Source: Loxodes magnus
Taxonomy: Eukaryota > Ciliophora > Karyorelictea > Loxodida > Loxodidae
Assembly (NCBI GenBank): GCA_946699065.1
Contig: CAMPDV010000710.1
Location: forward strand, 62,001-126,000
DNA length: 64,000 nucleotides
Direction of reading: 5' to 3'
How positions within the stretch are numbered: the first letter of the stretch is position 1; each line of letters opens with the position of its first letter. Both the position numbers and the translations under genes were made by a program. Below are positions 2,729-61,660 of the stretch, piece by piece. The notes under the pieces are model-generated. The model was not told the origin of the DNA. It was given only the letters and a program-made list of their open reading frames with translations, and ran no database searches.

Positions 2729-3640
2729 ATAGAGATTTAAGATGCTAACCTTCAATTTAAACTCATACAATTATAAAAGTTTATAAACCAATCAATTAAA
2801 CTATTTAAATGACTCCTATAAATTCAAGAGTTCATTTCTGTTTATAATAAAAATGCAAAAAAGTAGACAAAGCCATAAAGTAAGTTCAACTTCTTTATGT
2901 TGAACTTACTAGGGCCTTGGAAGAGCAAGCGCTAATAGGATGCTTTCCTAATTCAATTCAGAATAAGGATGCAATTCCTCTATAGGTTAAGAAGAAAAAC
3001 ATTTGAATCATTAATCTGAAAGGAAATAACAAGAGAAGGGTTATTAACTTACTGAAACTTAGAAGCTTAATCATTTAAATGAAAGATCCGATTTTAATAA
3101 ATAAAATCACACATGTAAAAAAAATTCCCCTGAGAAATAAAAAGAATTAGGGTAATTTATTTTAGGAAGAGCAAAGAATCTTACATAAAGTAAGAATTAA
3201 TAAAAGGAAATTACGAGCGCAATTGTGTAGAACTTAGCATCTACTAAACTTAAAAAGAGTAGTTTTAGCTATACAAATTTGAATACCTTGCAAGACGTTC
3301 GTGCAAGCAAAGCATCTAAAAATGATTGGATATTCTATTAGTAGAAACAATAAAATCCATCATTACTTTATTAGTACTCCTTTTCAAGTCTAGGTACAAT
3401 AAGTGAAGAAAGCACGTAAAGATCTTAGTCAAGTTAATAATTATCTCCTAGCGAAAGAAATTTCACTAGCTTATCACTTCATTTATATGAAAATGAAGAT
3501 AAAATTGAGTAAGAGAGTTCTTAGAAAAAAATTTAGGAAGAATCAAAATAAGTGAAGCTATTAATCTCCTTCTTAATAATTTTGGCGCTTTTGTACTTAT
3601 ACTTAATAATCGTAGTATGAAACAACTCACTACGCAAACT
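2729..3640 (+). CDS. Family R conserved basic Trp-rich protein, copy A (core; ends not defined)
   Basis: No known family is recognised. Read with TAA/TAG=Gln and TGA=Trp, this is one frame of about 300 codons without a frameshift. It aligns residue by residue with copies at 45.5-46.3, 31.1-32.0, 37.4-38.2 and 55.1-55.9 kb. Conserved segments in order are VYNKN, RIRM-FLY-LRRK, LLTYW, FKWKI, WEIK, IKGNYE, YNKWRKH, FIWKWR-NWV and, near the end, a Ser/Asn-Asn-Phe segment followed by MKQL. The Trp in LLTYW (3053), FKWK (3080), WEIK (3131) and NKW (3404) are all TGA. WEIK to NKW is exactly 273 nt here and in three other copies. Differences from copy 37 kb are concentrated at third positions (tac/tat, agc/agt, tag/taa, cta/ctg). 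The protein is rich in Lys/Arg/Gln/Trp, with no obvious signal peptide. The frame stays open on both sides, so true start and stop are unknown. Confidence 0.75.
2879..2910. repeat. Perfect 12-bp inverted repeat, 8-nt loop
   Basis: The arms AGTAAGTTCAAC and GTTGAACTTACT flank TTCTTTAT. The palindrome lies inside the family R coding frame. It is not conserved at the equivalent place in copies B, 31 kb or 37 kb, so it is probably private to this copy. Confidence 0.6.
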
Positions 3641-5157
3641 TTAAATAAATTTTTTAGTTTAATAATAAAATAAAATTTTAGCGTAATATCTTCTATTTAT
3701 ATTTCAAGTTATCCATATGATCTTAAGACTTTGTTTTAAGCTGTATTTATGTTTCATAATAAAACATTATAAAGTAATTAACTTTAATTTGTTAAATTAT
3801 AAATTCATACTTTTTATCTAATTCTATATAGATTATTAAAAACAAGTAAGAACAGAAGGTAAAAAGATAAAATAGATAAAGTGTTAGAGTGTTAAAACTT
3901 GTTATAGAGCTCTCATACTCATCTTCTATAACTAAATTAAGTCTTTTATATCAATTTAATAAATGTTAAATTTAAGAAAAATGACTAAAAAGCTAAAGTG
4001 ATAAAAATACTCCAATTTATTAGATTCTCCTTTTTATAAATCTTGAAACTAAAAATATTTAAATAAAGAAAGCCCTTTCATTAGATTATTAATAGGGGTA
4101 TAAATTATCTAATATGATTTATCTATTAATAAGAGACTTTTTAAATTAGTTTCCTTTACTTTGAAGATACTTATTTAAGTCTATAAACACAAAGAAAAAG
4201 TTCACTCTTACACTTTAAAATTTTCTTTAACTGTCATGCAACTTTACGTTCCATATGAAGGTATGATTCCTAAGAAACAGAAATAGAGTTCCATCGAAAG
4301 AAAAAGAAGATAATTAATTGACTTTTTTAAATAGTAAATTAATTTTAAATTTGAAGCATCTTTAAGAAAACTTGAAAGAGATAAGCTTTACATGATTTAA
4401 AGCTTTAATTATTTATTAGTAAGCTAAATTTTATATCTATTCTATGTATGCTATGATTTTAAAGCCTTAGCTTATTTAATTAAAAATAGATTTATATCAT
4501 ACATTTAATTCCAAATTTTATAATTTTATTGCTAACTAGAAAGATATAATATTAAAGGTATATGGCTATACATAATTGTATGTTCTATTTTATCTTCGTA
4601 TATTCATTTAAATATTCAGGATATTAATTATAAAAGCCAATCTAATTTATAATTATAAGCTAAGATGCTGCTATGCTAAGCTTTAGTTCTAAATGTTCTT
4701 AATTTATATTTTTTACCTAGTAAATTTATTACTATTAAGCTGCTTGACTCATTTAACTTAAAAGAATGATGATTATTTATTATTTACTTTTCTTTAATAG
4801 AATGCTAGTTTAACTTTAGTAACTTATTAATTTGGTTTAGGAGCATTTCTAGTTTGACTGTAGAAATATATAAGACAATGCTCCAGCTAATAAACAAAGA
4901 TTAATAGTAATGGTATAATATAAAGCTTTTTCCTATCTTTATAGCATTTATAGGAATCAATAAGCTTGATATCTTTAAGAGATATATAAAATGAATTAAA
5001 TCTAGTTAAAGACTAGAATTTAATAAAATTTAAGTTATATTATAAGAAAATAAATCTTTATAAATCTCTCTTTGCCTTTAAAGCTAAAGCAGGATCAAAT
5101 GTCAAATGGTTCGCATTATTTTATAGTTATTTTATAAAGGAGTTTGAAGCACATAAA
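3641..5157 (+). other. Family R downstream region, no gene defined
   Basis: Homology to 46.3-48.2 kb continues through this interval, and the gene frame stays open. Some stretches look coding in the same frame (around 4200-4310, matching 47,095-47,210). I cannot separate a coding tail from conserved flank. In the inverted copies the family R unit ends near the position equivalent to about 4,480. Confidence 0.4.
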
Positions 5158-5700
5158 ATGCTTTTTCTAAAGATATTTAAGCATAAAGAAAAAATAAATA
5201 AGAAATCTTTTAAAGCGTTAAGTATAAGTGTAAAAAGTAAGATAGATGTTTCATATTAAGCTGATATCGATGTTTTTAAGCTCAACGAAGAAAACTTTAA
5301 AAGCTTTAATTTCAATTTGAATCAATAGAAGAATAAAATGAAGATATAAAAACTATTATATCTACAAGAAACTCAAAGCAATACATTTCTTTAAAATTTA
5401 TTTTTTGTGCTTTCCGAAGCATTCAAAAGCTTGGAATCCATCAAAGTACAAGCTATAAAGATATGAGCTTGTACAAAAATGAGCTTATTAACGATAAACT
5501 AATAGAAACTAGCTTTGAATTGCTAATGTTTAGTAAGTCTCTTTATAAGCTTTTATATCTCTCTTTCAAATAACTATATTCTTCAAAGCTATTTTTAAGA
5601 TTATATGGTTTGCAGGATGTATTTAATTACAACTACCTTAGTAGTGATGTAAAGTGTTTATAAAGCAAAAGGATTTTAGTTAAAATTAGAATATAATAAA
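5158..5700 (+). CDS. Possible protein-coding insertion within copy A
   Basis: A frame beginning at the ATG at 5158 reads coherently under the altered code: Lys-rich N-terminus, a KIDVSY segment, a QETQSNTFL segment, then FVLSEAFKSLESIKV. Part of the segment has no equivalent in the 48.3 kb copy, suggesting an insertion here or a deletion there. A short piece (ETQSNT-like, near 10,545) recurs beside the zinc-knuckle element at 10.8 kb, so it may belong to another mobile sequence. No function is recognised. Call rests on composition and one partial repeat only. Confidence 0.3.
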
Positions 5701-8390
5701 CTAAAATAAATAAAGGAAAGAGTAACCTTAATAGAAATATCTACTTCTTATACTAGATAAAGTTTAAAAACATAGCTCTCATATGTTTTCTAACTATTGT
5801 TACTATATAATTTATTTTTAATTAACCATTTCTAAAATCTCAAATTTAATTTCCTTGTCAAATAAAACATTTAAGTTATAAGCTAAATTTATTTATCAAT
5901 AATAGCCTTTTTATTAATTGAGATATAGCTCATAAGATTAAGAGAATTAATAACTTATTTAATTAGCTAAATTCTAAAATATTTGCTATAAAATTATATT
6001 ATTTTACATAAGTTAAAACTTAAAAGCTTAGTATTAGCTTATTAATACGATATCATATCTTTAAAGCAGATGGACTTAGATATTAAAAATTGTGTTTAGA
6101 ATATAATAAATCTGAGATAAGTTAGAAGATAATAATTGCTAAGTTAAATAATTAAGCTAAACTTAATAAAATTTAAAAATGTATATAATGGTAGGACTTT
6201 AGTAAATTATAGTAAGGTTAGAGAGAATAAGATAAAAAGCAAAGCAACTTAGCTTAGAATATATACAATATGCCAAATATTTTAGATCAACTATATTTAG
6301 AATGATATTAGATAGAATACAAATTTAGCATAATATCCAATTATCTTAATTTATAGAAATTAATTACGAAATAATTGTTTATAACTATTTTAGCTTTACT
6401 ATTGAATGCTACATTCAAAACTCATTCATCTAAATCAATATATTTTACATTTTCATTTAACTTAAGCATTTTAATGATAGTCATAGATCTTCTAAAATTC
6501 TAGATTATAAACACTAAATTTATTTAAAGTTTATTTTAACTACTAACTTTAGTTTATTTGCTATATGAGTCTTTAAAATTTAAAAGCTTTAGGTTTCGGC
6601 TATAGTTGTGAATCTGATTTGAATGAACTCTAAATAATCTTAAATAGAAAATTATCATCCAAGAAATTAAAAGTTTATTAAAGAAGATTTAAGATATTAA
6701 TAGATAAAAGAATGATGCTTCATTTCAATTTGGGTAATAAACATATTAAAATTAGGAAAAATAAAATTCAATAGACCAACATAGCTCAAGAACTTTAAAA
6801 AATAATTGCATAAAATACAATAAATAAAATAGAAATATGAGAGATTATCTAAACACTAACTAACACACACATAAATTAATTCAAGGCTAAATAAATGAAA
6901 TTCTTTAATTTAAAAGTCAAACTTGCCAAGGAAATATTATAAAGATTTGATTGCAAATATTGGAAAATAATAAGCAAACAAAAAGAAAACTAAACATTTC
7001 TTTAAAATAATAGAAATTTAAAGGAAGAAAGTCTTTAAGTGAAAACTTATTAAAAATATTTCAGAAGTTATTCAATTAGAATAATATTTATGAACTGCAG
7101 AAATGATCTAAGTCTAATGTTAATGAAGAGTTTTTACAGAAATTCTAAAGAAAAACATTTAAAAGTTTATTGAGAAAGTTAATATTAAATGTATTATGTA
7201 GTTTATAAGAAAATAAAAATAAAGCAGTCTTTATACAAAAAAAGCATACTAAGTTTTAAACTAAAAACGTAAAGAACATACAAAATTTCAGGAACATTTT
7301 TATATTATCTTTAAGAATTAAAGAGAATGATAAATATTTAAGAGAGATATAATTAACACTCTAGTAACAAAAATAAAAATTTGCGTTTATTTAATAAATA
7401 TTTCATGAAATTTAGTGTTATTGTAAAAGCTTTTCTTCAAATGTACATTCAATTTATATTTGGACTAAAGTAAGCAAAATTTTTATTTTATGAAATTAAA
7501 TTTAACCAAAAATTATTATCTTGATTCCAGAAAATATAGTTGGAAATTACATAAAAAAGAATAAAATCAAGGACCAATAGATTTCTTAAAGAAATCTTAA
7601 AGAAAAGGAAGCATTTTATCTTTATCCTTATATTATATAAAATTAAATTAAAAAAATATATAATTAAATTGTCTTAAAATTTAATATAAATAATTGAAAA
7701 GTTATTTTTGATAGAATATAACTAAATTTATAGATAAATGATTAGATAATTTTGAAGGAAATATATATTTCTATCAGAATAAAATTTTAATTTCCCCAAG
7801 AGCAATTATAATAAGCTTGATGTATTACTAAAATTTATTAATTATATAAATATTATTGCATAAATTTTATTTTTATAACTATGAGAAATTATTTTATATT
7901 TCTACTGCAAATCTCATTAAATGTAATATTTTAATATTCTTTTTTTAAGGATTATTTCTTGACTTTTATAATGCATTATTAATAATTTAAACTCCTCTTA
8001 ATTTAATTTCTAAAGATTTTATTTATATTAAAAGTATTTTAATTCAATTTCTATACTCTCGTTATAATTTTTTAATGTATAAAGTTTATCTTTAATAATT
8101 CCCTAAAGTATTTGATTATATCTCTACTTTATAATATTTGAATGGTTTTAGCACTTGCTTTTTATTAATTTTTAGATAAAATAATGTTAGATAATAATAA
8201 GTCTTTAATTTGAAGTATTGATTATAATTTCTTTATCTTTTCTACTATATTTTAAGAATTTTATTTAAGTATTTTCCATAAAATTTATCTATTCAGCATA
8301 ATCACAATCCCTTTCTTCTAAATCTTTTTCTTATATAAAAATAAAAATTAGATTTTATATTTTAGCAAGAAATTATATAAGTTAAAGAAC
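5700..8390. other. A+T-rich tail of copy A and spacer
   Basis: Up to about 7,100 this matches 48,480-50,870 once the insertion there is removed. From 7,100 to 8,390 I see no repeat match, RNA gene or convincing coding frame. Confidence 0.5.
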
Positions 8391-10807: not shown

Positions 10808-12004
10808 TGATATAATGTTTATAAATGTTAAAAAAAAGTATTCTGGATATATTCTTCATAGTCTTCTTCTGTCTTATGCTTCATTATTACATATCGACTA
10901 TTACTTTTTTCTCCAGGTTTTATTTAGGGATTTGGTTAAAATCTAGTTCTTTTCCAATTATTTACTAGGGTCTAAATCATATATTTTCTTCAGGACCGAT
11001 TTACTAATTTTTTACGTTTGTTAACTTAAGTCTATAAACTTTACCCTCTTGAGTAACATACAATCTGCTTAATTTATTCAGTGTTTTTTAAATTCTTTTT
11101 TTCTCTTCATTTTGTTTATTTTAATATTTCCAGCATTGTCTTACAAAATGACTAGGTTTTCTGCAGAACCAGCATTTAGGTTTTTCCTTCATTCTATTTC
11201 TTTTTGCTGGCTATATATTCATAGGATCGTTGTGAGAGAGATTTTTAGAAACAGACTCTCAGTAATCTCAACGAATTAATTTAATTTTTCTTCTGTCTGC
11301 TTGATTCTCTAGTTAAATTCTAATAACTAAGGATGATTGCTGAGTTCAGTCTTGTAGTTACTATTTTCTTATCTTAGTGTGTTCACGTTATTGATCAGGC
11401 ATTAGATTTATTCTTTCAGTGAATTAAGTTGTATGGAAAGTTCGTTATTATCATTTTGCATTTTTTAGAGGTTTTCAAAAATTATTTTCTGAGGATCTAA
11501 TAAATCTTAGGAAGAAGAGTGAGTTAGTTAAAGCTAAGACGTGGTTAGAGATGATGCTTCAGGTTTTCTCTCCTACTCTGAGGAGGTGGTAAAAAAACCT
11601 TTCTTGAAGCCAGTCATTTTTTGTATATATAATAAAATAAGTCAAGAAAACAGCTACTTACTAATTTAATTTACATACTAGATAAATTTAAATATAATAT
11701 AATTATATTTCCTAGTTTAATTTTAATTTCAACTATAAAAGTTTTTGGACCGGAAATTCCTTTCCGATTGCACGACCCGACGCTCTCTTTTTATGGAATA
11801 ACGGGGATATCCTGTTGTGCTCCAGGCACAGCTGCTAGGGAGCTCCATCGCTATGAGCAGTCAGGCTTCAAGCCCCTACTAAGAGCGGATAATCTCAAAG
11901 ACAGTGTTCCCTTCAGAAAACGACTCTGACCAGGGACTTTCTCAGCGACAGGAAAGGAACTTGTTCCTAGCCATAAAACCAGAAAGTGTCGTCACGAAGG
12001 TCAT
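10790..12004 (-). pseudogene. Gag-like protein with coiled coil and CCHC zinc knuckle, one frameshift
   Basis: From the ATG at 12,004 the frame runs through the ATG at 11,617 (129 codons apart, in frame) under TAA/TAG=Gln, TGA=Trp. It contains an EGNTVFEIIR segment, then from 11,617 a Ser/Thr/Gln-rich stretch and a strong coiled coil. Near 11,250 the reading shifts by -1/+2 into NDPMNIQP and a perfect zinc knuckle CWFC-RKPS-H-FVRQ-C (CX2CX4HX4C; first Cys 11,174, last Cys 11,135). Trp codons in the knuckle are TGG. Related copies have TGA at the equivalent positions. The gene ends near a DDPNERWYH segment. Knuckles of this kind bind nucleic acid, and gag-like packaging is the likely role. The shift may be inactivating or programmed. 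Confidence 0.7.
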
Positions 12005-12030
12005 TCTCAGCTCCCACCATCTTTTCAATT

Positions 12031-13264: not shown

Positions 13265-13276
13265 ATTTAAATTTGG

Positions 13277-16305: not shown

Positions 16306-16841
16306 GAGAACTAAGAGCTTTCTGAAACAAATACTAAGACCAGAATAACTAATCCTAAATTAGCTTCAGAAACAATCTGATCTGAGTAATAGACTGGAAA
16401 AATTAGAAAAGAAGATAGACGAACAAAGGGAGATCCAATGATGATCGAAGAGACCAAAACGAAGACTAAGATTAAACAGCAAAAAGTAGTGAAGAAATGT
16501 TATTTCTGTAATTCGACAGAACACTTGTGAAGACGCTGAAAGAAATTCCAAAATTTAAAGACTTAGTATTGGAATAAATAAAGAAGAATAGAAGTACAGC
16601 AAAGGAAGAAAAAACAAATGCAGTAGAGATAAATCAGAGAAAAATTGTACTTAAATGAATTAGGATACATTTACAAGAGAAAATTTGATTAGAAATAAAG
16701 ATAGAATTGGAAATGACAAGAGCAATGAGAGAAGTAGAGCCTTATAAAACTTTATTTTTAATACCAGAGCAATCTGGTGTCCAGATGAAGAGGTGAAAAT
16801 CCTCGATAATTGCTAAATTTAATTGATCCTATTATTATTAC
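16306..16841 (+). mobile_element. Zinc-knuckle element G, 5'-truncated insertion with 12-bp duplication
   Basis: A 536-bp insertion bounded by the 12-bp duplications and absent from the family S copy at 40.3 kb. It starts within the coiled coil (RLEKLEKKIDEQRE). The frame then shifts by -1/+2, in the same sense and place as in element C, into DPMMIEE and a knuckle C-YF-C-NSTE-H-LWRR-W. The final Cys (first Cys at 16,498) is missing. Trp codons here are TGA where element C has TGG. The end is ATTATTATTA. Truncated 5' end, simple tail and target duplication are hallmarks of target-primed retroposition. Confidence 0.75.
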
Positions 16842-18620: not shown

Positions 18621-20584
18621 GAAGCATAAAATATTTTAAAGTTAATTTATAAAAATACATTTGTAAAAATTTTAAGCATCCATATCACTTAACTATTTTA
18701 TTTCTTTACTACTAAACTTAAATTAGCTTTAATAAGTAGTCAGCAACTAACTATTCAATGAAAATTAAAAAGTAATAGAAAAGATACACTATCTTATGGA
18801 AGCGTTAATCATGAGGTAAACTTTATTATCATATTTTCTTGCTTAAATATAGAAATTTTAATTAATACTCTTAAGTCTTTAAGAAAATCTCTGATATATA
18901 TGTATTTATAAAAATATCTTTATGGATTTAAGGGAATTATATATTTTTATTTATTAGATATAAAAATATATCAATATATGAGTAATTTTAAAATAGTTTA
19001 AATGAGTAAAATATAAATATTCAGGATTTAAAAATTATTTTAAAAATTATAAACCTTGAAGTATATATATTACAACTAATAAAAGTGATAAAATTCTTTA
19101 TTAGTTCTTAATAAAGATTATATGATTCTTGAACACCTCATTAATAAAGTTATAAATATTTATTACTCTTCTCATTCAGTCAAATTATTAAAAATCGCTT
19201 TTTCAGAAAAAAAATTAAAATTAAAATGTTTATAAAGCTCAACAATGCTAAAATCGAAAATTTAGATATGATTCATCATTTTAATTTCTTTTTTATAGAT
19301 AAAAATAGATAATTATATAAATATCTGGTATTAAATAGCCTTATAAATATAAAAGCTATTCTAAGTAAATTTAAACTTAAACCAAAAATATTTATTATAA
19401 CTTAAACTGTAAAATTATTTCTTCCAATTAAAGCATTAAGCTTTTAATTCATCACAGTACTCCCTAATATTTTCTTTTCAGCATCTCTTATTTAGCTTTT
19501 TCCAACATAAATAATAATAATATAAATAATTGAATAATGAATACTCAGTTATGATAAGTTATAATTATAAAAATACTATATCTAAATTATTAGAGAAGCT
19601 TTATAATTAGTTAAATTTTATGCATGTCTTTTCTTTAGCTAGCTTTCAAGTGCTATTTAAATACAAAATGAAGTAATTATATTATAAATGTATATAGACA
19701 TACATTTATAAAAGTTAATTATAAAGAAAAATAGATTATATTTGATATACAATTTTATATAAGCATAAAGAGCTTTACTTAGATACCAATAATTCTATTA
19801 ATTATTTAAAATAATATAAAGCTCTTTACTTTGGTTATATTTCTTTATTAAACATATTTAATTTTAATATTCTAGTTAGATAATGATTGTTCACTAAATT
19901 ATTAAGTTTAAGATAAAAAAGAAAATTTAGGTAAATCAAAGATTTAATAAAATAGTTGATGCACTAAAATAAATAAGTTAATTTAATATGTTTAAGGTAT
20001 ATAACTAATAGATAAATTATTAATAAAGATAATAAAATATTTTATTAATACTTTAATCAATATCATCCTTATTTCTTTCTAAAAATATTAAATCTTTATG
20101 AAGCTTGGTTTAAATTAGAAATAAAAGTGATTTAAGAATTTTAATTATCATTTAAAATTAAATTAAAATGCTTAAAGAATTTATTTAAATTAAGCTTTGA
20201 TCTTCAAATAATTTAGTTCTTTCAATAGTTTTTCAGTTTTATTAAGGTAATTTTAACAACGTAAGAGGATATAATTAGCAACTACTTTGAGTTAAAATGA
20301 GTAGAATAAATAAATAAATTTTTGGTAGATTTAGTCTTAAGTAATAAAGGATCATCTAAAATAAATCTTAATAATATTTAAAGAATAATCTTTATAATTT
20401 GATAGCATTCTAATTTAAAATTAAAGGTTAAAGATTAAAGAACAATCCTCAATTATAGTTTTAATAGTCTTAAAATTTAACTTCTTTATCTTTATTCATA
20501 ATTTTCGTACATAATTTGACTAAATTTGATTGAACTTAAAAAATAAAGAAATAGTAAGGAAAATCCCTAAAATTATAAAATAAT
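18621..20584. other. A+T-rich spacer
   Basis: No RNA gene, element or convincing coding frame recognised. Short A+T-rich similarities to other parts of the window are not informative. Confidence 0.45.
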
Positions 20585-21274
20585 AGGTGATCATAATAAA
20601 ATTGTTAACTTAATTTTATAATATTTGCTTAGCCTTAAAGTTTAAAATAATTGATATAATCTAAAAACTTACTAAAATCAAATTATATTTAGCGAGATAT
20701 AGAAATAAGCAAAATTATTATTATAAAAACCTTATAAAATAAATAATTCATCAACTATAATTATTTCCTTTTTGCAAATTAATCTAGTTTTTAATTGTGA
20801 GAAAAACATTCAATAATAAACGTAATAACTTGAAGAAAGATAGTTTTTTAAAAGAATTATTAAAAGATTAAAGAAGGATATAACTAATAAACATTTTAAA
20901 TTAAATAAGAGTAAAATAAAAAATTCTATTTTCAACTTTATAGATTGAAAGTAATCAAAAGTTAAGATAAATAAAATAAAAAACTTAGATATATGAAATA
21001 ACTATTTATATTTGAAAGAAAGAGATTGTATTATCAAATAATCTTTAGTAAATTATTTTATGATATTATCTATTTTAGCACTAAACTTAATAAATCCATT
21101 ATTTATCTATTTTTTTAATGTAGATAATTATTTAATTATCTTGATATAATTTCGAAATTAAAATCCACTAAATTAGGTAAAAATAGATAGTAATTTTAAA
21201 TAAATTTTAGATTTAGAGGAAATGTATTACAAGCTAGCAATTGGTTTATTAAATTATAAAAATAAACTTTATTA

Positions 21275-21346
21275 TACCTCATGGTGTAACGGTTAGCACT
21301 TTGGACTTTAAATCCAGCAATCCGAGTTCGATTCTCGGTGAGGCAA
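21275..21346 (+). tRNA. Glutamine-type tRNA with anticodon UUA (reads UAA), copy 1
   Basis: A full cloverleaf: acceptor TACCTCA/TGAGGCA, D stem GTGT/GCAC, anticodon stem TTGGA/TCCAG, loop CTTTAAA with anticodon TTA at the standard place, 4-nt variable region, T stem CCGAG/CTCGG with loop TTCGATT, discriminator A. The body from the anticodon arm on closely follows eukaryotic tRNA-Gln, whose loop is normally CTTTGAA. The single change gives UUA, a decoder of the stop codon UAA. Box A (TGGTGTAACGG) and box B are present. Pairing A2-C71 is mismatched, unlike copy 2, so this copy may be weaker. Amino acid identity is inferred from resemblance. Confidence 0.93.
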
Positions 21347-21351
21347 TTTTT
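21347..21351 (+). terminator. Pol III T-run terminator
   Basis: Five T directly after the discriminator base of the tRNA. Confidence 0.8.
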
Positions 21352-42182: not shown

Positions 42183-42254
42183 TGCCTCATGGTGTAACGG
42201 TTAGCACTTTGGACTTTAAATCCAGCAATCCGAGTTCGATTCTCGGTGAGGCAA
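42183..42254 (+). tRNA. Glutamine-type tRNA with anticodon UUA (reads UAA), copy 2
   Basis: Identical to the copy at 21,275 except that position 2 is G, restoring G2-C71, so the acceptor stem TGCCTCA/TGAGGCA is fully paired. Anticodon loop CTTTAAA, box A and box B as in copy 1. This is the better candidate for the functional gene. UUA reads UAA and, by wobble, possibly UAG. No tRNA for CUA or a Trp tRNA reading UGA was found in the window. Confidence 0.95.
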
Positions 42255-42258
42255 TTTT
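42255..42258 (+). terminator. Pol III T-run terminator
   Basis: Four T directly after the discriminator base. Confidence 0.7.
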
Positions 42259-43859
42259 GATTATTTAAAAAAATATTATAGATTAATAAAAATATACAGA
42301 CTTTAGTTTAACTATATATATAATTCTACTTAAATTATCTTAATATAAGCACTTAATTATATTTAGTTTAAAAATATTTTTATATATTTCTAACATTAAA
42401 ATGTATTCTAAAAACTAAATATACTTATTGATATACCAAGATTAAAATATTTTAAATTTTTTTGTCCGCAAACAACAAAAATAAAATAAACTGAATTTTT
42501 TTAACTTAAAAACTCAAAAAAGTGGAAAACTAAATTATGTATTTATCTTTTAATTAGTGCTTAAAAATATTAATAATAATTATCCTTATTTAGAACAAAA
42601 ATAACTAAAATAATGAAATTACTATACATTTAATTATAGTTATATTTCATTTAGATTTAAATTTATTTTACGTATAATCTAATTAAATTCTAATAAGATT
42701 ATAGTTATGTCTTTTTATCTAAATCTTAATAATTTAGATAAGTAATATTTTAATTATAAATATAATCTATACTTAGAAGTCTTTAGCATTTATAAATATT
42801 TTGAAGAAAGAGATTATCAAATACAGCATTTTTAGCTTAAATAATTCATAAAAGAAATAAATAAAATAAGAAACTTTAGGATTTAAAAAGGATGAAAAAG
42901 TAATAAAATTAGAAAATAAAAATTTATTGATGATCTAATTTAGCTTTAATTTTTTTATTTCTAATTTTTAAAGAAGTATAAATAGGAGTAATCAAAACAA
43001 CACACAAAAGTCATCCTAATTAAACAATTAAATTATAATTGTTTTATATTTTCACAATTTTTAAGATATATCTCTTTATGTTGCATAACCAAGAAAATGA
43101 AACTTAAGCTAAATATCTATTTATGGTAGATATGTTTATCATGTAAAATTATTATTGTCTTTTATCTCCTAAACGCAATTAGATTCATATAATTTTATCT
43201 TCATTATTTTTAATTAGCTTCTTTAATTAAAATAAGACAACTTTTGATGATATTGCTTTTCCTTTTTTTATTTATTTTAAAATTAGATTTTAGTCAAATT
43301 GAAAAAAGTTTCTTATTATTAAAGGGATATTACTATTTTCTAAAAGGATAGATCCATTAATATTTTTAAAATATCATATTAATGAACTTATAGCAGGAAT
43401 GAATAGAATTGCTCTATTATTAATTTTTCTTTAATTTATAGATATTAATTTAGCAACTCATTGGTAGTTTCTACTAAACTAAATTTAGTTATAATTCTTT
43501 AATTTTTCTTATAGAAGACTTTAAGTAATTATTTAGGAATAACATTTAAGATTTATTGTACTTGAGCAGATTAAACTAGTTATATATCACAGCCTTATTC
43601 ACTTAATTAATGTGTTAACTTAATTTAGCTTTTATTAAAGTATACCTAAAATTATAAAACTTAGTTACATTTTATCCTTAAAGAGTCTTGTATATAAAAA
43701 GAATTACTTATTTAAAAGAAAATATGCTATTTATAGCTCTTAATTTATAAAGGTAATAAGCTATTTTATATTCATTATTTAGATTTATCTAGTCATCTTA
43801 GCTTCTTTTTTAAACAATTTATTAAGTCAAGATAAGTATTAATATCAGTGGATTTTTCA

Positions 43860-45469: not shown

Positions 45470-46290
45470 TTACTTTTATAATAAAAATGTTGAAAAATCA
45501 TTTAACGCATAGCCTTAGTTCAAAATCTGTATGCTAGAAATACTAGAGTTTTGGAAAAGGAGTCGCTAATCGAAATCTTTCAAAGACTAATTAAGAATAA
45601 AAATGGCATTCCTCTGTAAGTTAAGAAGAAAGAAACTTGTAGCATTAGCATGAGAGGATCTAGCAAGAGAAGAGTAATTTACTTACTGAAAATTAGAAAT
45701 TAAATCTTTAAAATCAAAGATTTGACTTAAGCAAACAATTAAATATATGAAAAGTAAGTTCTAATGAGAGATAAAAATCATAAGAGGATAATTCTTTAGG
45801 TAGAGTAAAGAATCTTAAAGAAAGTAGAAATTAATAAAAGGAAGTTATGAGTGCTATTATGTAGAATCTAGTATCTACAACATTTAAAAGGAAAATATTT
45901 AGCTGTACAAATTTGAATTCCTTTCAAGACGTTCGTGCAAGCAAAGCATCTAATAATGATTGGATATTCTATTAGTAGAAACAATAAAATCCATCATTAC
46001 TTTATTAGTACTCCTTTTCAAGTCTAGGTACAATAAGTGAAGAAAGCACGTAAAAATCTTAGTCAAGTTAATAATTATCTCCCAGTGACAGAATTTTCAC
46101 TAGCTTATCACTTCATTTATATGAAAATGAAGATAAAATTGAGTAAGCGAGATCTTAGGAAAAAGTTGAGGAAGAATCAAATTAAGTGAGGCTATTGATT
46201 TCCTGCCTAGTAATTTTAACAGTTTTCTACTTTTGCTCGGTGATCATAATATGAAACAACTTAATTATTAACTTTTATTTTTATTTTGTC
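45470..46290 (+). CDS. Family R conserved protein, copy B
   Basis: Plus-strand homologue of 2729-3640 with an intact core frame. It shows YNKNVEKSF, LRIKMAFLCKLRRK, TYWKLE, WEIKIIRG, YNKWRKHVKILVK, FIWKWRQNWV and a SEAIDFLPSNFNSF tail ending MKQL. TGA is Trp at 45,687 (TYW), 45,765 (WEIK) and 46,038 (NKW); the 273-nt spacing is kept. FKWK is altered to LKSK here. One base is missing relative to copy A near 45,465, so the upstream extension is out of frame. The 3293-3510 equivalent is nearly identical in nucleotides, whereas flanks are less similar. Confidence 0.75.
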
Positions 46291-48729
46291 AATTAAATGA
46301 ATTCTTCACCATATATTTTCTCTGTATTTTGCAGTTTATCTATATACTCTAAAGATTATACTTTGTGCAATAATTAAATTTGGTAATAAAAATTAAATAA
46401 CAATAAATTTTAAATGGCTATATCATAAAATCCTTTTATCAATTTCATGTAGAGGATTATAAAAACATGTAAGTTAAGAAGGTAAAAAGGTAACAGAATT
46501 TTAAGTCCTAAAATGTTAAAACTTGCTATAGAACTTTATATTATGCTTTTTTTGATAAGATAAATCTTTAAAATAAACTTACTATAGATAAATGTTTAAT
46601 ATTAAGAAAATTTTTAACTATATCCTATTTATTTATTTTGATTTTCATATATCATAAAAAAATAATTATTTGATTTTTATTATTTTAGCCTTTCGATTTA
46701 ATTAGTTTAAAGCTAATATTAATATGATCAAAGGTAATTTTATTTTAATTTTAGCTTATATCTTTATAATAAATATACTTGGTAGTTTAGCTTCATTTTA
46801 GAAGTTAAAACCAAAGTATGATTTTCCACTACCTCTTTTCTTAATTTGATAATTTAGCTTTGCTACAATTTTAAAGTGATAAAATATTTATTTTTATATT
46901 TCCTTTATTATTACTTTAATGAGAGAAGATTTAATTTAAATGAAAATAACCTAAATGAAAATAAGCTTCTTTTAGATTAGTAATAGTGATATAAAGTATT
47001 TAATATGACTTATTTATTTATAAGAGACTACTTAAATTAGTTTTCTTTACTTTGGAGATATTTATTTAAAATTATAAACACTATGATAATAGTTCACTCT
47101 TACACTTTAAAAATTTATTTAACTGTATATAAGTTTATATTCCATATAGAGATATTATTCCTAGAAAACAGAAATAGAGTTTCATTAAAAGATAAAGAAG
47201 ATATTCTTATTAACTTTTTTAAATATTAAATTTATTAATAAATTTGAAGCATTTTTAAGAAAACTTGAAAGAGATTAGCTTTCAAAGATTTAAAATTTTA
47301 AATCTTTATTTAGTAAGTAAAATATTATATCTATTCTGTGTAATGCTAGTATTCTAAAGCTTTTATAGAAATATAATATTGTTAGTGCTAAGGTTAAATA
47401 ATTATGAAGATTAAAGTTTTATGAATTAATAATTTATTATTTTAAAAGCTATTTTCAAAAATAATCTAACCAAATAGATATTAACAATCACTAGCCTAGA
47501 TCATCTTACTAGCAAATAGATTTTATAATTTTATTTAAAGATATATGGCTATATGCCATTGTATATTCTATTTATCTTGGTATATTAATTTAAATATCCC
47601 AGATATTAATTATAAAGCTAGTCTAATTTATAATTAAAAGCATAGATGCTGTTTATTAAGCTTTAGTTCCAAATGTTATTAATTTATATTTCTTACCAAG
47701 AGTATTTTATTATTAGTCTATTTGACTCTTTTTAACTTACAAGAATGATGTTATTTATTATCTATTTCTCCTTAATTTAACGTTAAAGTATCTTTAATGA
47801 CTTATTATTTTATTTTAAAAGCAGGTAAACTCTAGTTTGACTTTAGAAATATAGATGATAGTGCTTTAGCTAATAAATAAAGATTTATAGCAATGATATA
47901 ATCTATAATACTTGCCATCTTCTGAAATAATCTAGGAATATTGTAAATATTCTATCTTAAGCAAATTATAGAAAATTAATTATAATTAGTTAGCAAATGA
48001 AATATTAGAAGCATAATTAGAAATAATTTGTCTTACAAGAAATAAATCTGAAAATTGAATAAACCTCAGCTTTAGCTTTAAAGGTAAAATAGTTTTTAAT
48101 ATTATTTTAGTTTTCAAAGATATTTAGTAATTTAATAAACAAATTGAAACTATAAATTTATAATCCTTTAAAGCCTTTTATTAAATGTATTGTGACTTAT
48201 AGGCACTTTACTAATATCAATTAAAACAAAAATTACGATTTTTAGTTAATAAATATAATAGCTAAAAATAAGATAGATGCTTTACTTTTAGTTGATGTTG
48301 CTTTTTAAGCTAATTGAAGAAAACTTTGATAGTTTTTTTAATTTGAATAAATAGAAAAATTAAAAATGAAGCAGAAAACTTTTAAAGATAAAAAAATAAT
48401 ATTAGCAAGAAAATAAAGGCAAATAAATTCTTTAGAATTAAATGATTTCTGCATTTTACTAGACATTGTTTATAGAATAAAATATTTAGTTAAAATTAGA
48501 GTATAATAAACTAAAATAAATAAAGAAAAGAGTAACCTTAATAGAAATATTTACTTTATATATTTTATTAAGTTTTAAAGCAAACCACTCTTATGTTTTC
48601 TAACAATTGCTATTTTGCATTTGATTTTTAATTAGATTTTCTAAAATCTCAAATTTAATTACCTTACCAAATTTCCTAAAATTTGAATAAGGTATAAACA
48701 AGAGCGAATTATTATAATATATATATAAA

Positions 48730-49467
48730 ATGGCTTCTAAGAAATAACAGAACTTTGAACAAAACAGTTAAACAGGAAAATAATCTAAAAAATAAAAAAA
48801 CGAAATAATTACAATGAGTGAAAGTGAGAAATATGATTGATATGACGAACATTAACCACTTGGAAATCCAGAACTAAAAAAACTTCCGACACAAACTCAA
48901 ATAGAAATATTATCTAAGTCATTAAAAGAGTTTATGTTTAAAAATAGATACCTCACTGATAAAGTAGAAAAATTAGAAAAACTAATAACGTCTTTACTTG
49001 AGAAACAATATTAATCATCATAAGAAATAGAAAAAAACCTGGAACAAAGAATTCTTTAAATTTAATAATAAATTCAGGTAAAGCCATTTTCGATTTAACA
49101 GAATTAATAAGATCCTATGGAAATAGAAAATGAAGCCTCAAATTAAAATAAAAAGTAAACGTTTATTTAAAATAAGTAGTAAATTTAAATTAAATAAGTG
49201 CTACAGGAATAATAGTTTAAAAGAAGAATAAAATGCTACGTGTGCAATAAATAACACCAATGAAAATACTGCTACTAACTAAGCGAAATTTAAAGAAAGA
49301 ATAAATAAGATATTTTTAGAAAACTATTTAGGATATATCCAACATAGAGCGGAAACATTTATAGAAAAAAATTCTTTAATTCAAATCTTAATCCTTGGAG
49401 AAATAATTAGGAACGCTACATGCAAGATGAAAACTATTCAGAATATTAAAGGATGGTGCGCTAATGA
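48730..49467 (+). CDS. Intact gag-like protein with coiled coil and zinc knuckle
   Basis: From the ATG at 48,730 one frame runs 245 codons to the TGA at 49,465, or about 50 codons further if that TGA is Trp too. A Lys/Gln-rich start is followed by an acidic segment with Trp37 as TGA (48,838), then a coiled coil at about residues 75-115 and DPMEIE at residue 128. A knuckle C169-YV-C172-NKQ-H176-QWKY-C181 follows, whose Trp178 is TGA (49,261). Spacing is CX2CX3HX4C, one residue shorter than usual. Many Gln are TAA/TAG, others CAA. Under the standard code the region is riddled with stops, so it is evidence for the altered code. Probable role: nucleic-acid-binding structural protein of a retroelement. 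Confidence 0.8.
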
Positions 49468-49481
49468 AGTGCTACACCGCC
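49451..49481 (+). repeat. Variant stem-loop with covarying stems
   Basis: GGTG-CGC, loop TAATGAA, GTG-CTA-CACC. The layout and 3' CTA bulge are those of the terminal stem-loop, but the stems consist of different, still complementary bases. Confidence 0.55.
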
Positions 49482-50879
49482 TAACTAAGCCTAGTAGAAA
49501 TTCAAGACAAACTAATGGAGACAAGTTGATAGAATAGGTCAGATGGCTGACTACTAAGGCTTTAGCAAAGCTTTTTAACTTTAACTTTAATTTTATTAAA
49601 AAGAAATAGATACATAGAATTATTTCTTATAACTACATTATTTAGAATTGAATACTACCTTAAATCCTCTAAGTAGTATTAAAAATTAAATGAAGCTAAT
49701 AAGTTTATAATAAATAGATTAATAGTTAAATAAACATTAAGATATAGCAAATTTTATTTTTTAATAATAGCCTTTTATTAATGACATCTACCTTATAAGA
49801 TTAAGAGAATTTGTAATTAATTAATCTAAAATATTTGCTATAAGATTATATTGGTTTTCATAAGTTAAGATTTAAAAGGCTAGTACTATATTATAAATAA
49901 GTATCACATTTCAAGCAGATAGGCTTAAGTCTTAAAAATTATGTTTAAAATTTAATAAATCTGAGATAAATTTGAAGAGAGAAATTGCTAAGTTAAATAA
50001 TTAAATTAAATACAATTAAATTAAAAAATTTATATAATAGTAATCTATAGTGGGATATGGTACGATTAAAGTTAGAAAATATAATAAGAGCCAGAAAACA
50101 AAAGAAAAACAAATTAAGTTGGAATATATATAATATGAAAAATATTTTAGATAAGATATTTAGAATTATATTAAATAAAATAAATGTAGCATAATATCCA
50201 AATATCTTCATTTATAGAAATTAATTATGAATTGTTTAATAATAACTATTTTAGCTTTTCTATTAAACTCTTCAATCAAAATAAATTTATCTAAATCAAT
50301 ATATTTTACATTTTCATTTAACATAAGCCTTTTAATGATAGAGATAGATATTTTTAAACTATGAAAACTCTAAATTTATTGAAAATTTATCTAAAGCTTT
50401 AATTTATTTGCTTTATGTGTTCTTTAAAGTTATAAGAGTTTTATGGTTTAGTTAATAATTTAGAATCGATTTGAATGTATTCTAATAATCTTAAATAACA
50501 ATCTATCATCCATGAAATAAAAAATTTTATTAAAGAAAATTTTAAATATTAAGAGATAAAATAATGATGCTTTATTTCAATTAGGGCTATAATAAATGAG
50601 AATTAGTAGAATTAAAATAAAGAGATCAGAAGAACTCAAGAATTTTAGAGTAAAATAGAAAAAATAAATGAATAAAGTACTATAAATCAAATAGAAAAAC
50701 GTGAGATATTCTAAACACTAACTAACACACTCATAAATTAATTCAAGGCTAAATAATTGAAATTAACTAACCTAAAAGTCAGATCTACCAAGAATAATAT
50801 TATACTGATATAATTGTAAATTTTGAAAAATAATAAACAAAAAAAAATAAAATAAAATTCTTTTTAGAATATTTTTTTA

Positions 50880-52355
50880 AAGTAATGTCTGAACCACCTG
50901 ATATTAAAAGACCATCTTCAGAAAGCTATTCAATTTGTGTGAAATTGCCTTTAGTTAGATTAATTTTGACATTTTAGTATTACATTTTCTTTTCTGTTTA
51001 ATTTCAAGACTTAAGAGTATTCGATTCTTTTAGAATTGCTTTTATGGAGTTAACTTTAGTTTAATTATCATCAAAGGAAATATTTTATATTTAGCCTCTC
51101 TTTCCTGTTTTGGAGCTATTATTAAAGCAGAATTTAAATTCATAAAAAATTAAATAATTTTATCTTAGAAAAGTTCTTTAATTTCACTATTTTTTTATAT
51201 ATCTTACTACGAAACTAGCTACCAAATCCTTTTTAGCAAGTTTTAAGGTTTTTGGATCAAATTAACTATACCTATTTTCTCATTTCCATAAGTTATTCTA
51301 CTTTTCTTCCTATATTCAAATCTTCTTTATACTCAGCTTTTGGTTTATGCAAAATGTTATGTTTTGCTTTATCCTTATTAATAAAATAGACTTAGAATTG
51401 AGTTAGTTCTTTTAATTTACTTTTATCTAATTCTCTTATATTTCTCCTAGCAAACTTATTCTTAATAAAGCTTCTGCTAATAAGATTGTAACTCGCTGCA
51501 TAAATCTTAAGCTTAGTTTAAGGTTCCTAGAATTTTTCTAGTTGAAAAGGAACTTAAATACTCAATATTTCTATTAGAAATAATTTAAGCACTATGGATA
51601 TCTAGTTTATTTATTTCATTTTAACTATCAAAAGGTATTTTTTACATATAAGGAAGCTGTAAGGAAATATCTTAGGTCAGTGTTGCGATCTGTTGAAGAT
51701 ATATCCACAAATAGGACAATATTTATGAAATTTTAGCTTTTAAAGAGATTAAACGAAAATAATTAAAGCACTATTTACAATTTCCTTTATCTTTATCTTA
51801 TTTTTATAAATTAAAAGGATTATATATCTTTTTAAAGGATTAAAGATATTTATTCTAGCATTCTATTAGATTTAAGTCATTCCTACTTTCTAAATCTTAA
51901 AGTTTAAATTATTAAAAAGAATAATCGTAAAGAAATATTAAGATTCTATAATTACTTGATTGTCTTTAACAAATATCTTATGGTTTTATTAATTGCTCTA
52001 CTAATTCTTTTCTTCATATAAATCTTTAAATTTGCGTATTTTCTTTCTTGCAATTTTTATTATTTTAGGAGTATTTTACTTTATCTCTGTAATCTCTTCT
52101 AAATTTTTATTCTCAATTCGTAAAACAGATTCATCTACGATATTTATATTTAAATTTTTGTTTCTCAGTTTCTTTCATAAAAGCTTTAAATTTTTTATTT
52201 TACTATTTATAAAGCTTAAGTTCTTAGGTAGTCATTTTTGATAGAAGTATAAAATTCTTAAGATTTGCTTTATAATTAGGCTAAATTATTATATTGTTCT
52301 TGCTAAATCCTTACATTATTGAATAAAATACCACAAAATTTATCTAATTATCCAT
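50880..52355 (-). pseudogene. Family S gene, 3'-truncated minus-strand copy
   Basis: The ATG at 52,355 starts MDNQINFVV, matching the start at 24,156. The coiled-coil part shows a frameshift (MTTQELKLYK against MTILELKLHN). The copy ends at SEDGLLISGGSDI (near 50,910) where it meets family R copy B. The sister copy reads SQDDLLISGG, so the ancestral motif was probably SEDDLLISGGSD. Upstream it shares GCACGGAATTTAAATT (near 52,400) with the 24.2 kb copy. Confidence 0.55.
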
Positions 52356-53900: not shown

Positions 53901-56900
53901 TATAAAAATAGTTAGAGTTTATAATCAAAGATATCTATTTTGGTTAGAGAAGCTATTAAAATAATTTGTATTTAGAACAATAAAATTATTAAGTCGTAAA
54001 ATGTGAATTTTCTTTTTAATTTTATCTTTAACTTTAGTTTCCAAAACCTTTATTGCATAAATAATCTATTTAGCACTAATATAGCATAGAAAAGATATAT
54101 GACTTTGCTTTTATTTAGTTAACTAATAAAGAATTTAATTGCAAAATTGAGAAAGCTTATTTCCTTATCCTTTTCTTAATAATGCATTAATTTTAAAAAA
54201 AATTCTGTATATTTAGTAACACCAATTAAAATTACCATCTTTAATAGTTAATGTAGCTCTAAGTCTGATATTAAGGAATAATATCGCCAAAAATGTAAGC
54301 AAAATGGAAATAAATTATGTAACAGTGTAAGACTTTAAATTCTAAGAGTGTTTTGAGTATAAAAGTATTTTTAATCTTAAACAATTTACTTAAAAGTAAA
54401 GAAAAATAACTTAAACAGTTATACATAATTAATAATCAACAATAACCTATATCACTATCAATAATCTAATGCAAAACTTTTATATTTCATATTTTTTATT
54501 TAAATGTAAATTCTAAAAAATTAAGAGACAAATAAATTATAAAAGGAGACTTTTTATCATTTTAGATTTGTAATATAACAGAATTATCAACTCTAAAGAA
54601 AAAAGGCATAGGGTATTAAACGTTAGCTTTCGCTTCTAGAAATAAAAATTAAATATTCAACTTAATTGTAAGAAAATATAGAGGTTAGATTTTAGAATAG
54701 CATCACCTTTTGATTATAATTATAATAGCTTTTATTAAATAAAAATTTATCTTTAAGTAAGTTTCTTTAAAAGACTTAAATAAGTATAATTATGAAAGTT
54801 CTATAACAGGTTTTAACATTTTATTAATTAATTTCTTTATCTCTTAACCCTTTCTTATTACTTTTTTAATCATTATGAAATTAGACAGAGAAAATGGATT
54901 TATAATATAAGAATTCAAGTTTATTACTGTTTGATACTTTAACTAAAAGTTTATTTCAAAAATTAAAATTTTTAGAACATATGGGAAAACTACAATCTAG
55001 AGAGAATAAAATATGGTTAAGAGTTTTTTTTAATTAATAATCTAAAAAATATTATTTGTAACTAAATGAATAGCTTCATTATACGATTAACAAGTATAAG
55101 TAGGAAAGTGCTAAAATTACTAGACAATAAATCAAAAGCATTGCCTATTCTGATTATTTATTATCTTTTACATCAGAGTTATATTGCTCAGCTTTTTCTT
55201 TTTTTTCATTAAACTGAAGTGATGAATTAGGATTTTTATCACTGAAAGTTAAATATTAGCTTGATTAAGACTTTTATGAACTTTCTTCACTTATTGTACC
55301 CAGACTGGAAAACGATTTTTAATAAATCTTTGATGTTATTTTCTTATTCTCAATATCAAAATATTTTATCATTATTAGATATTTTGATTACTTCGACATC
55401 TTGTAAGCTGCTCAAATTTGTATAGCTTTAACTATTCTTTTTATTTGTAGTTGACTCAATATTCTTTATAATACCACTCATAATTACCGTTTATTAATGC
55501 TTAATATATTTAAGCTTCTTTACATTATCTGGAGTTAATTTCTCTTTTGCTTTTTATCTCTCAGATGAGCTTATTTTTTACATCTGTTATTATTTGCTAA
55601 AATCAGATCTTTCATTTAAATGATATAACTTCTTATCAGTAAGTTAATAACTTTTATCAAGTTATTTACTCTCAGTTTGGCGTTTGAAGTTTTCTTCTTT
55701 ATTTGTAAAGAAACACTATCCTTATTCTTAGTTAAGCTTGAAAAGCTTATTATTAGTTATTCCTTTTTCAACACTCTAGTGATTTAAGTATACGGATTTT
55801 GAATTTGTTTATTTGCTTAAATGATTTTTCCACCTTTTTATTATAAACAGCAACGAACTCTTGAATTTATAGCTATCAATTATATAATTTAATTAATACT
55901 ATTAATGGGATTTGGTCATTATATGTAGTTTAAGTTTAGGGCTAATAGCTACACTTCTATATTTCTCAAACACACAGACCGAGTTAGATATTAAAGCATA
56001 AGATCATTTCCACTTTTACTTTGTTTACGTTAAATCTTTAAATAATTAGAGATTATATTTCTAAGCTTTAATTTTAGTTATAGCTAGCTTTAGAAAGAAG
56101 TACTAAGAGTCTTTTAGATTTAATTTAGTATTTGTTATGTTTTACATTTAATTAGAATTACTAAAGCTATAATAATTAACATTCAAGGAATTAAATTAAG
56201 TCATGTATAGCAAGAAAGCCAAAAGTATCATTTAATAAATTTGATTATTAGCTTGCATTGCTTAAACTACTTAATCGCTAAACTAATGATTTCTTAATTT
56301 CATAAAATTAGGGAGCTCTAGATAAATATTTAAGAAATAAGATTTTAATTTATATTAGATTCAATTATGAAAAAGAAAAGCTTCATTTGATAGAAATGAA
56401 AAAAGATAGAAATAATAGTATACAGTGCTTTACAAAGGATAATAATTAATTAAATAATAATAAGCAAAAGTTAAAGCAAGCTATATAATAAATTCATTGC
56501 TAATAAATAGTTTTAATATTAAAATAAATAGAAAATATAGTCACTACTTTCAGACTTTATTAAGAGTAAATATATACATTATATTTTATTTCATCAAATG
56601 AGCAAATATAATAAATTAAGAATAGAACCTAATAATATATTACATCTCAGAAGCTCTAATAAAACGAAAAAATAAACAATGAAATAATATAAAAATCAAT
56701 AAGAGAAAAAACATGTTCAAAAAATCAAAAAGCTTTTATTTAATAATTATTTTAAATAAAGAAGCATCATAAAAATTTGAGCTAGGATATTTTTAGTATT
56801 AGAACTTTGACTTAAATTGAAATCTACATCACTAAAATCTTATTTTATTAGAATACTCTATTATTTTTAATAAAAAGTGCTTAAATAGATACATATATCT

Positions 56901-57599: not shown

Positions 57600-58000
57600 A
57601 TTTTCTTGTTGTTGCTTTCGTTTGAAATATTGGCGGTTTCTTATCAAATGTTCAAGTCTTCTGCAATGTCAGCATTGTTTTTTACTTATATAATAAAAAA
57701 TTTTTTGTGATGATCTTTAAGTTCTATATCCATCGGGTCATTCATCGGTATATTTTAAAGAAATATACTTAAATCAGCTCTGCATTTGGTTGAATTTTAA
57801 TTTTAATTGCTCGATTCTGATCTTTTCTGATTATTTATTTTCAGTTTTTTATTTTTATACATTAGACATCAGATATGGGATTTTTTCTTTAAGCTCTTAT
57901 AAATTTCTTAAAAGTTTAAAATTCTCCTATTGCGCAATTTTGAGTTCTCAAAGTATATTTTGCTAATCGTTATTTAATTTGAATGGATCTTTTAAAAGAA
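57600..58000 (-). pseudogene. Decayed zinc-knuckle element (I)
   Basis: On the minus strand it shares LAKYTLRTQN, CAIGEFQTFKK and IRAQRKN with the element at 15.0-15.7 kb. The knuckle is C-WH-C-RRLE-H-LIRN-R (first Cys 57,674). The Trp is TGA where element C has TGG in the same place, and the last Cys has become Arg (TGC to CGC). Confidence 0.6.
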
Positions 58001-58074: not shown

Positions 58075-58252
58075 TTTAATGCTAATTTGTCTCAAACTCT
58101 TACATCTCGATCTCTTCAAATATACCTTTTGGAATTAGAAACTCTTCTTCAATCTTATCCATTTCTTCTTCATTTATGTTGTTCTCTCGTATTAAGTATC
58201 TATCTTCTACTTATCTTCTTTTTATTAATTTTTTTTAATAACTTTTAGCCAT
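58044..58252 (-). mobile_element. Stem-loop-ended element fragment (J) with small acidic ORF
   Basis: From the ATG at 58,252 the minus strand reads MAKSYQKKLIKRRQ, ENNINEEEMDKIEEEFL and PKGIFEEIEMQEFETN, a basic start followed by an acidic stretch. It runs into the stem-loop at 58,044-58,074. Another frame gives the family's IKELRTIEVLRALQ. No function recognised. Confidence 0.5.
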
Positions 58253-60159: not shown

Positions 60160-61660
60160 CTATAAAAGGAAATTATTAATTTTATCTTTTATAAAAGTAC
60201 TAAAGTAAGCTAATTTAATTTCTCCTTTGTATCTAATATATTAACAATATATTTCTAAATAAGCAGACTTACTGAAATAAATATATTCCTAATAAAATGT
60301 TTAAATTTAAAAAAGGTTAGAATTATGAAGCAAAAAGAACTACTTTTCATTTTGTAAGCCTTTTTTAGTAACTTACTCAATTTTTTTTAAGATTTAATTA
60401 TTATAAAAGTTAATTTTTTACCTAATCTTTGGAAAAAGTTAAAATAGCGGAAGTTTCTTACAGGAAATGTGATGCTTTATTTAAATTTTTTTTTCAATTC
60501 GAATGCTTAATTCTTAGTATTATGCGCAAGCTTTAATGACTTCTTAATAATCAAACCTATCCTGAAAAAGTGTTTTATTTATTTTTTATTTTGGAATTAT
60601 CTCGACGTACACTCTCCTTATTATACCCCTGCATAGTTTGTCTTACAAAAAACAATTTAATTATTATCTATAGTAAAACACATCAATCTATCTAGAAACT
60701 ATTTAGTTTCACCCTTGTTAATTAAAGTTACCATAAAAACGTTAATTCTAAAATCTTATTAGTCCCAAACTTCCAAGTTAGTACTCATTATTTATTAAAA
60801 TCAAAAATATCTTCGACCTATAGTTGTCGAGTCTGAGCTTATTTTATTTTATGTTATATCTTATTCTATAAAAATTTGCATTTTATTTTAGATACTAGAG
60901 TGCTAATTTTATTTTTTTAATTTTATCGTCACTTTCTCCATCGCCTTCATTATTTCATAGAGATATTAAAAATTTTTTATACTTTAGATATTCATAAAAT
61001 TTTTTGAATTAAATCTAGTTCACTTTTTTAATTAAAAACCATCTTATTTCTAGTTATTTTTAGCTCTACAATCTCAATTATTATTTATTTCCTCTTGATT
61101 ATTTTTCTCTTTATCTAATTTCTATAAAAAATCTTTAATTAGCCTTAAGATTTGACTAGTTTCTGTTATTCAAAAATTGTATTCCAATTGAAAAAATATC
61201 CTAAAGCTTTAAATTTATTTTTTCTCCTAAAATTTTTTTTTTTATTTCTATTATTTAAAGTTAAGCTGCTTGGGGAATTTATTTCGTATTAGTTTGCTTA
61301 TATTTTCTTAAATTATACCTTTGTCAGCATAATATTAGTCTTAGCGTAAATTACTTTTAAGTAAACGATTATCATTTATTTTTTCTTGATTTAGTCAATC
61401 TATGTATTAGCTTATGTTTAATTATCTTGTAGGTATCTATGTATTTTTAAGTATTTTTGGTACTATTTTTTCCTTTCAAACCTAAAGTGCTTGTATTTTT
61501 CTGATCTCATTTAATTTTATTTCTTCCAGATCTCATAACTATTAAACCCATCGAAGTAAGTAATATTATTTTACCTCTTTATATTCAAAATCTTCTATGA
61601 ATTCTAGAATAAAAGATTGCTATTTCAGATCATCGAAGTCATCCAATCATATCCAAATTA
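60160..61660 (-). CDS. Family U protein, long minus-strand frame
   Basis: One frame of about 500 codons under the altered code. It reads WLDDFDDLKQQSFILEF, EYKEVKQYYLLRWVQQLW, DLEEIKLNEIRKIQ, NISQYIDWLNQEKIND, QYYADKGIIQENISKLIR, LIKDFLQKLDKEKNNQEEI, YLYEIMKAMEKVTIKLKK and DYQEVIKACAQYQEL. The sequence is Lys/Gln/Glu-rich, helical-looking, with scattered Trp as TGA and TGG. A broken copy at 26.95-27.48 kb shares LEEI and KNTQ segments. Start and end are not defined because no codon is an unambiguous stop. No known domain recognised. Confidence 0.5.

Follow-up and report, generated by a model that had tools for sequence, protein, structure and literature searches.

Loxodes magnus uses NCBI translation table 27. 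In the available text of PMC11441545, UAA and UAG (UAR) encode glutamine, UGA is either tryptophan or the only stop codon, and the genome is rich in repeats; between that description and the DNA analyzed here, we found no difference. The same text has UGA read as tryptophan when it is sufficiently upstream of the poly-A tail, coding UGA depleted over about 20 codons ahead of the stop, and published L. magnus assemblies of 706 Mbp (MAC) and 848 Mbp (MIC). The karyorelict Parduczia sp. is also alike, with UAA and UAG as glutamine, UGA as tryptophan, and UGA at expected stops. However, its eRF1 gene has an in-frame UGA, whereas the eRF1 copy that we translated (locus L031) has none (excerpts of PMC4967479). 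Condylostoma magnum (table 28) likewise has a sense meaning for all three standard stops, but all three codons also stop there, whereas here a stop role was seen for UGA only (excerpts of PMC4967479). As far as it is described, Blastocrithidia nonstop shares the sense meaning of all three standard stops, with UGA as tryptophan, but it reads UAR as glutamate and also stops at UAA, whereas here UAR is glutamine and the stop is UGA. In the ordinary ciliate code (table 6; Tetrahymena and Paramecium), UAR encodes glutamine and UGA is a stop and not also tryptophan. That code and this DNA have UAR as glutamine and UGA as a stop in common, and UGA as tryptophan was found here only.

We analyzed a window of 64,000 nucleotides (assembly contig C710, positions 62001 to 126000), together with conserved genes elsewhere in the assembly. 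It is nearly certain that this is Loxodes nuclear DNA, most likely of the L. magnus macronuclear assembly, and that it uses table 27, with UAA and UAG as glutamine and UGA as tryptophan internally and as a stop at gene ends. The code is real, but it was described previously and is already known; the window adds sequence-level confirmation of a code known from karyorelicts, including Loxodes. A first-pass annotation of the window had taken all three stops as sense codons. Its assignments of UAR to glutamine and UGA to tryptophan were right for the genome, but it omitted that UGA is also a stop. UGA in table 27 is not simply a sense codon. It is tryptophan or stop, depending on context, and where the sole stop codon doubles as a sense codon, termination can be set by mRNA position.

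UGA and UAR codons in conserved genes

The assembly has 705,730,643 bases in 7,843 contigs. We sampled 21 arbitrarily placed 10-kb stretches, three further stretches next to gene-rich ones, and three eRF1-domain loci, and conserved genes were located by a codon-usage scan and Pfam. These genes are on contigs C1, C2, C3, C4, and C196 and none is on the window contig; within the window, we found no conserved gene with a TGA at an invariant tryptophan. There were 16 internal TGAs: four in a CHD remodeller gene, two in a DYRK-type kinase gene, three in a START gene, six in a WD40 gene, and one in a pelota gene. There were none in a gene encoding phosphofructokinase and phosphoglycerate kinase domains (PFK-PGK) or in the translated eRF1 copy. 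The pelota and PFK-PGK genes are placed as follows.

Locus L033, 1237-2424 (contig C2), minus strand: Pelota/Dom34 gene with one in-frame TGA
Locus L006, 6182-8947 (contig C4), minus strand: PFK-PGK, phosphofructokinase and phosphoglycerate kinase domains in one 922-codon open frame, from Pfam

Twelve of the 16 internal TGAs are within the stretches that align with the PDB homolog chosen for each gene. Eight of the 12 face tryptophan, and none faces cysteine. Tryptophan is faced by both aligned TGAs of the CHD remodeller (9ear; sites GLNW and DSDWNPQND), both of the kinase (5lxc; DMWS and QWD), both of the START gene (1ln1; RMKWD), and two of five in the WD40 gene (2ymu; IKIWD and VWSVA). A check of codon assignment on conserved protein families, which the first-pass annotation had proposed for the whole assembly, bore out its reading of UGA in the sampled loci. 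The four aligned TGAs off tryptophan are evidence against that reading. Three of these, in the WD40 gene, face threonine in 2ymu; in its seventh repeat, this gene carries TGG at the corresponding position. The fourth is the single aligned TGA of pelota, which does not face tryptophan in 5lzw; homologs have asparagine or phenylalanine there. In addition, WD40 W96 faces tryptophan in 2ymu but threonine in a second homolog (6g6m), by which one of the two tryptophan matches of this gene is lost. CHD W346, opposite arginine in a weakly aligned part of 3mwy (8.2 bits), was not counted, and neither were CHD W1268, START W212, and WD40 W22, which are outside the aligned stretches. In eight conserved training stretches (4,555 codons), we counted 49 TGG and 15 TGA codons, along with 152 TAA, 58 TAG, 61 CAA, and 27 CAG codons.

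PFK-PGK has 30 UAR codons, and its homolog search pointed to ciliates (Blepharisma and Stentor). The domain fusion may be unusual; the PGK family was absent from the precomputed Pfam domains of the best 120 of 1,547 homologs. A table 6 reading that this gene had suggested was dropped because the CHD gene has a TGA at an invariant tryptophan.

Under table 6, UAR would be glutamine, UGA would only stop, and the TGAs would be decay of repeats or pseudogenes. The lack of internal TGA in PFK-PGK and eRF1 fits this, as do a window that is largely diverged repeat, internal TGAs that are private to each copy of its repeat family R, and a TGA at a cysteine site at 16,537 (see below). However, long conserved genes with otherwise intact frames have TGA at near-invariant tryptophans, at the 8 of 12 aligned sites given above, and L. 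magnus UGA is described as tryptophan in the available text of PMC11441545. Therefore, table 6 is very unlikely to be the code of this genome, although single TGAs within the window may be decay.

Some of the sampled loci are repetitive. In L001, L004, and L016, tandem repeats give long open frames by chance under table 6, and L001 also had Pfam scores above the cut-off that are apparently spurious. L008 (C6:50001-60000) has WD40-type repeats in a tandem array, with a G+C content of 43% and a frame that is broken in places. Across three frames of this array, the site preceding SVA is TGA in 42 of 42 cases and the site preceding DV.TG is TGG in 80 of 80.

eRF1 and the ends of genes

There are two eRF1 gene copies on contig C196. 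The protein is identical to Loxodes striatus eRF1 at 427 of 432 positions and has at most 60% identity to the other 119 matches listed. The first-pass annotation had guessed a karyorelict lineage from the window, and this match confirms it. The translated copy has 21 UAR codons. Its protein carries the motifs RAQNIKS and FLCENTF; the human counterparts are TASNIKS and YLCDNKF. The search for matching eRF1 substitutions, also suggested at first pass, was positive: both motifs are tabulated for L. striatus eRF1 in the available part of PMC4695839, which adds that Loxodes eRF1 needs both altered motifs together for UGA-only recognition.

In both eRF1 copies, ..DPDEDFL is followed by TGA, with a second in-frame TGA three codons further. 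The C terminus of the L. striatus protein is this same DFL. PFK-PGK also has a terminal TGA, shortly beyond its PGK domain. The first-pass annotation had held that housekeeping genes ending in a standard stop that they do not use internally would speak against it. PFK-PGK and eRF1 are such genes with respect to UGA, but the CHD, kinase, START, WD40, and pelota genes are not, because they use TGA internally.

The end of eRF1 is the only one known independently. Other gene ends, such as that of MBF1, were located by reading to TGA and therefore do not test UAR as a stop. This leaves some room for a Condylostoma-type code, in which UAA and UAG are stops too, because an upstream UAR stop would be overlooked where the C terminus is not known. 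However, table 28 has all three codons as stops, and in this small gene sample the stops seen were UGA alone. Both eRF1 copies end at TGA precisely at the L. striatus protein end, UAR codons occur throughout the conserved domains of PFK-PGK and eRF1 and up to the end of both, and the eRF1 matches Loxodes, for which the available text of PMC11441545 has UGA as the only stop. Table 28 is highly improbable here.

Several features of table 27 are observed here. Its glutamine UAR is seen in the UAR-rich conserved genes and in UUA-anticodon tRNA genes (see below), its tryptophan UGA in the aligned conserved genes, and its stop UGA at the ends of eRF1 and PFK-PGK. A genome of the Karyorelictea, to which Loxodes belongs, is indicated by the near identity to L. 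striatus eRF1. The alignments, on contigs beyond the window, show UAR and UGA as sense codons and UGA also as a stop.

For Condylostoma and for the karyorelict Parduczia, a model has been proposed in which a tRNA reads the codon by default and a release factor acts near the mRNA end (excerpts of PMC4967479). For Loxodes, the parts of PMC13092985 and PMC12005148 available to us, citing others, give a tRNA-Trp(CCA) with a 4-bp anticodon stem. From this literature, tRNA-Trp(CCA) with its shortened anticodon stem would be the default reader of UGA, with the release factor winning over it only close to the mRNA 3' end.

The window and its tRNA genes

The window has a G+C content of 21.5%, and much of it is diverged repeat. 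With the standard code, its longest stop-to-stop stretch is 98 codons, stop counted. Pfam searches of six window regions, on one or two strands each, gave nothing above the cut-off. The window has two tRNA genes with a UUA anticodon, which we take to be tRNA-Gln genes from their resemblance to eukaryotic tRNA-Gln.

21275-21346, plus strand: tRNA gene, anticodon UUA (reads UAA, and UAG by wobble), pair 2-71 broken
42183-42254, plus strand: tRNA gene, anticodon UUA, no stem pair broken in the fold

The two genes sit in duplicated segments and are identical at 71 of 72 bases; the single mismatch between them breaks the 2-71 pair of the first copy. The flanks of the duplicates have diverged far more (identical at 655 of 853 and 478 of 645 bases), and this comparison points to selection on the tRNA. 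In the sampled loci elsewhere, ARAGORN found no tRNA (all 21 loci) and Rfam gave nothing above the gathering score (14 of the 21).

The absence of the conserved genes from C710 could mean a mixed assembly, with the genes that use UGA as tryptophan coming from an organism other than that of the window. However, the window carries the UUA-anticodon tRNA genes and is likewise rich in UAR and in A+T, and the frame of family R is kept around internal TGAs. A mixed assembly is extremely unlikely.

Family R and other TGA sites in the window

Family R has five copies in the window.

2853-3620, plus strand: copy R1, putative protein with hydrophobic C terminus; internal TGA 2901-2903, terminal TGA 3618-3620
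45487-46254, plus strand: copy R2; internal TGA 45748-45750, terminal TGA 46252-46254
37368-38135, minus strand: copy R3; internal TGA 38016-38018, terminal TGA 37368-37370
31073-31837, minus strand: copy R4; internal TGA 31790-31792, double terminal TGA 31076-31078 and 31073-31075
55066-55835 (low end approximate), minus strand: copy R5; start codon lost, one 1-base frameshift

The likelier frame (frame 0) runs from an ATG common to R1 to R4 to a TGA that is in one column in all five copies, although in R5 it is retained in a shifted frame. The shared TGA comes after a hydrophobic stretch, which, read from the letters, suggests a putative membrane anchor at the C terminus. By the codon usage of the eight training stretches, frame 0 ranks first of six in all four of R1 to R4. 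The frame 0 block of these copies has only 3 gaps in 4,665 aligned positions (six pairs summed; R5 excluded for its frameshift), each of 3 bases, whereas its flanks have 69 gaps in 1,997 positions and 45 in 1,751. On the 3' side, the first gap column is the third base beyond the TGA. On the 5' side, a one-base gap is 13 columns ahead of the ATG, but the 27 columns preceding that gap are gap free, and so this border is less sharp. Two other measures failed to single out frame 0. Its mean BLOSUM62 score is 0.477, compared with 0.532 for the frame of a WEIK motif (below) and 0.489 for one antisense frame. Exchange of TAA/TAG with CAA/CAG between copies, which had been offered as evidence for the code, is not frame specific: among R1 to R4, there are 10 such pairs in frame 0, 4 in frame 1, and 14 in frame 2.

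R1 to R4 each have one private upstream TGA, at codons 21, 92, 44, and 20, respectively, and share the TGA at codons 258 to 260 (counts start four codons before the ATG). The column of the R3 internal TGA has TGG in R2, and that of the R2 internal TGA has TGT in R1 and R3. All four copies are truncated under table 6 and open to the shared TGA under table 27. This pattern fits table 27 without being proof of it. There are 371, 410, and 435 changes at the three codon positions, a small third-position excess, and with such weak codon-position selection the internal TGAs could be decay. It is unlikely, but conceivable, that the copies are working genes in which UGA roams as an extra tryptophan codon off conserved tryptophan sites, where its gain would be almost neutral, other than close to the 3' end, and position alone would determine the terminal UGA. 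If true, family R would be a natural experiment on the distance from UGA to the mRNA end that is needed for sense reading.

The first-pass annotation had relied on TGAs at the tryptophan of the WEIK motif in the five copies, on two TGAs in zinc-knuckle-like motifs, and on two open reading frames (ORFs).

3131-3133, plus strand: WEIK TGA, phase 2 of the R frame
45765-45767, plus strand: WEIK TGA, phase 2 of the R frame
31560-31562, minus strand: WEIK TGA, phase 2 of the R frame
37855-37857, minus strand: WEIK TGA, phase 2 of the R frame
55561-55563, minus strand: WEIK TGA, phase 2 of the R frame
16537-16539, plus strand: TGA in zinc-knuckle-like motif, facing the final Cys codon (TGC) of the knuckle in the 11.1 kb copy
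57669-57671, minus strand: TGA in zinc-knuckle-like motif, facing TGG (Trp) of C-W-F-C in the 11.1 kb copy
48730-49464, plus strand: 245-codon ORF with zinc-knuckle-like motif, two internal TGAs
34709-35686, plus strand: 326-codon ORF, four internal TGAs

All five WEIK TGAs are present, but all are outside the likelier R frame. The phase was assigned by hand from TCA positions for R3 to R5; the three minus-strand coordinates had been given as the low end of a TCA. The WEIK frame has 7 to 13 TGAs per copy (900 bases read). Both knuckle TGAs were said to face TGG. This holds at 57,669, where arginine replaces the last cysteine of the knuckle, but not at 16,537 (alignments by eye on translations, ungapped for 16,537). 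Neither ORF had a Pfam match above the cut-off. By codon usage, the proposed frame is the best of six at 48,730, and at 34,709 codon usage does not tell the frames apart: the proposed one scores 51.0 with four TGAs, compared with 52.7 and five TGAs for another sense frame. That these ORFs and the R cores are unbroken only with the claimed code carries no weight, because the code as claimed has no stops.

Reading UGA as cysteine, as in Euplotes, with UAR as glutamine would suit the TGA facing cysteine at 16,537 and the R2 internal TGA facing TGT, but its probability is negligible when the aligned TGAs of conserved genes face tryptophan in 8 of 12 cases and never cysteine. The leading evidence from the window (the WEIK sites, 16,537, and the open ORFs) does not show the code; the proof is in conserved genes on contigs other than C710. 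In diverged repeats, neither open frames nor recurrent TGAs are in themselves a demonstration of codon reassignment.

At about 11700-12020, the G+C content is above that of the surroundings (29.8% in the 2-kb step from 10,001) and there are short open frames, for which no identity was found. The window also has old duplicated segments: 20400-22000 and 41200-42950, with the tRNA genes; 5675-6930 and 48485-50792; and 22693-23188 and 50883-51380. Their identity is about 71 to 85% where repeats matched.
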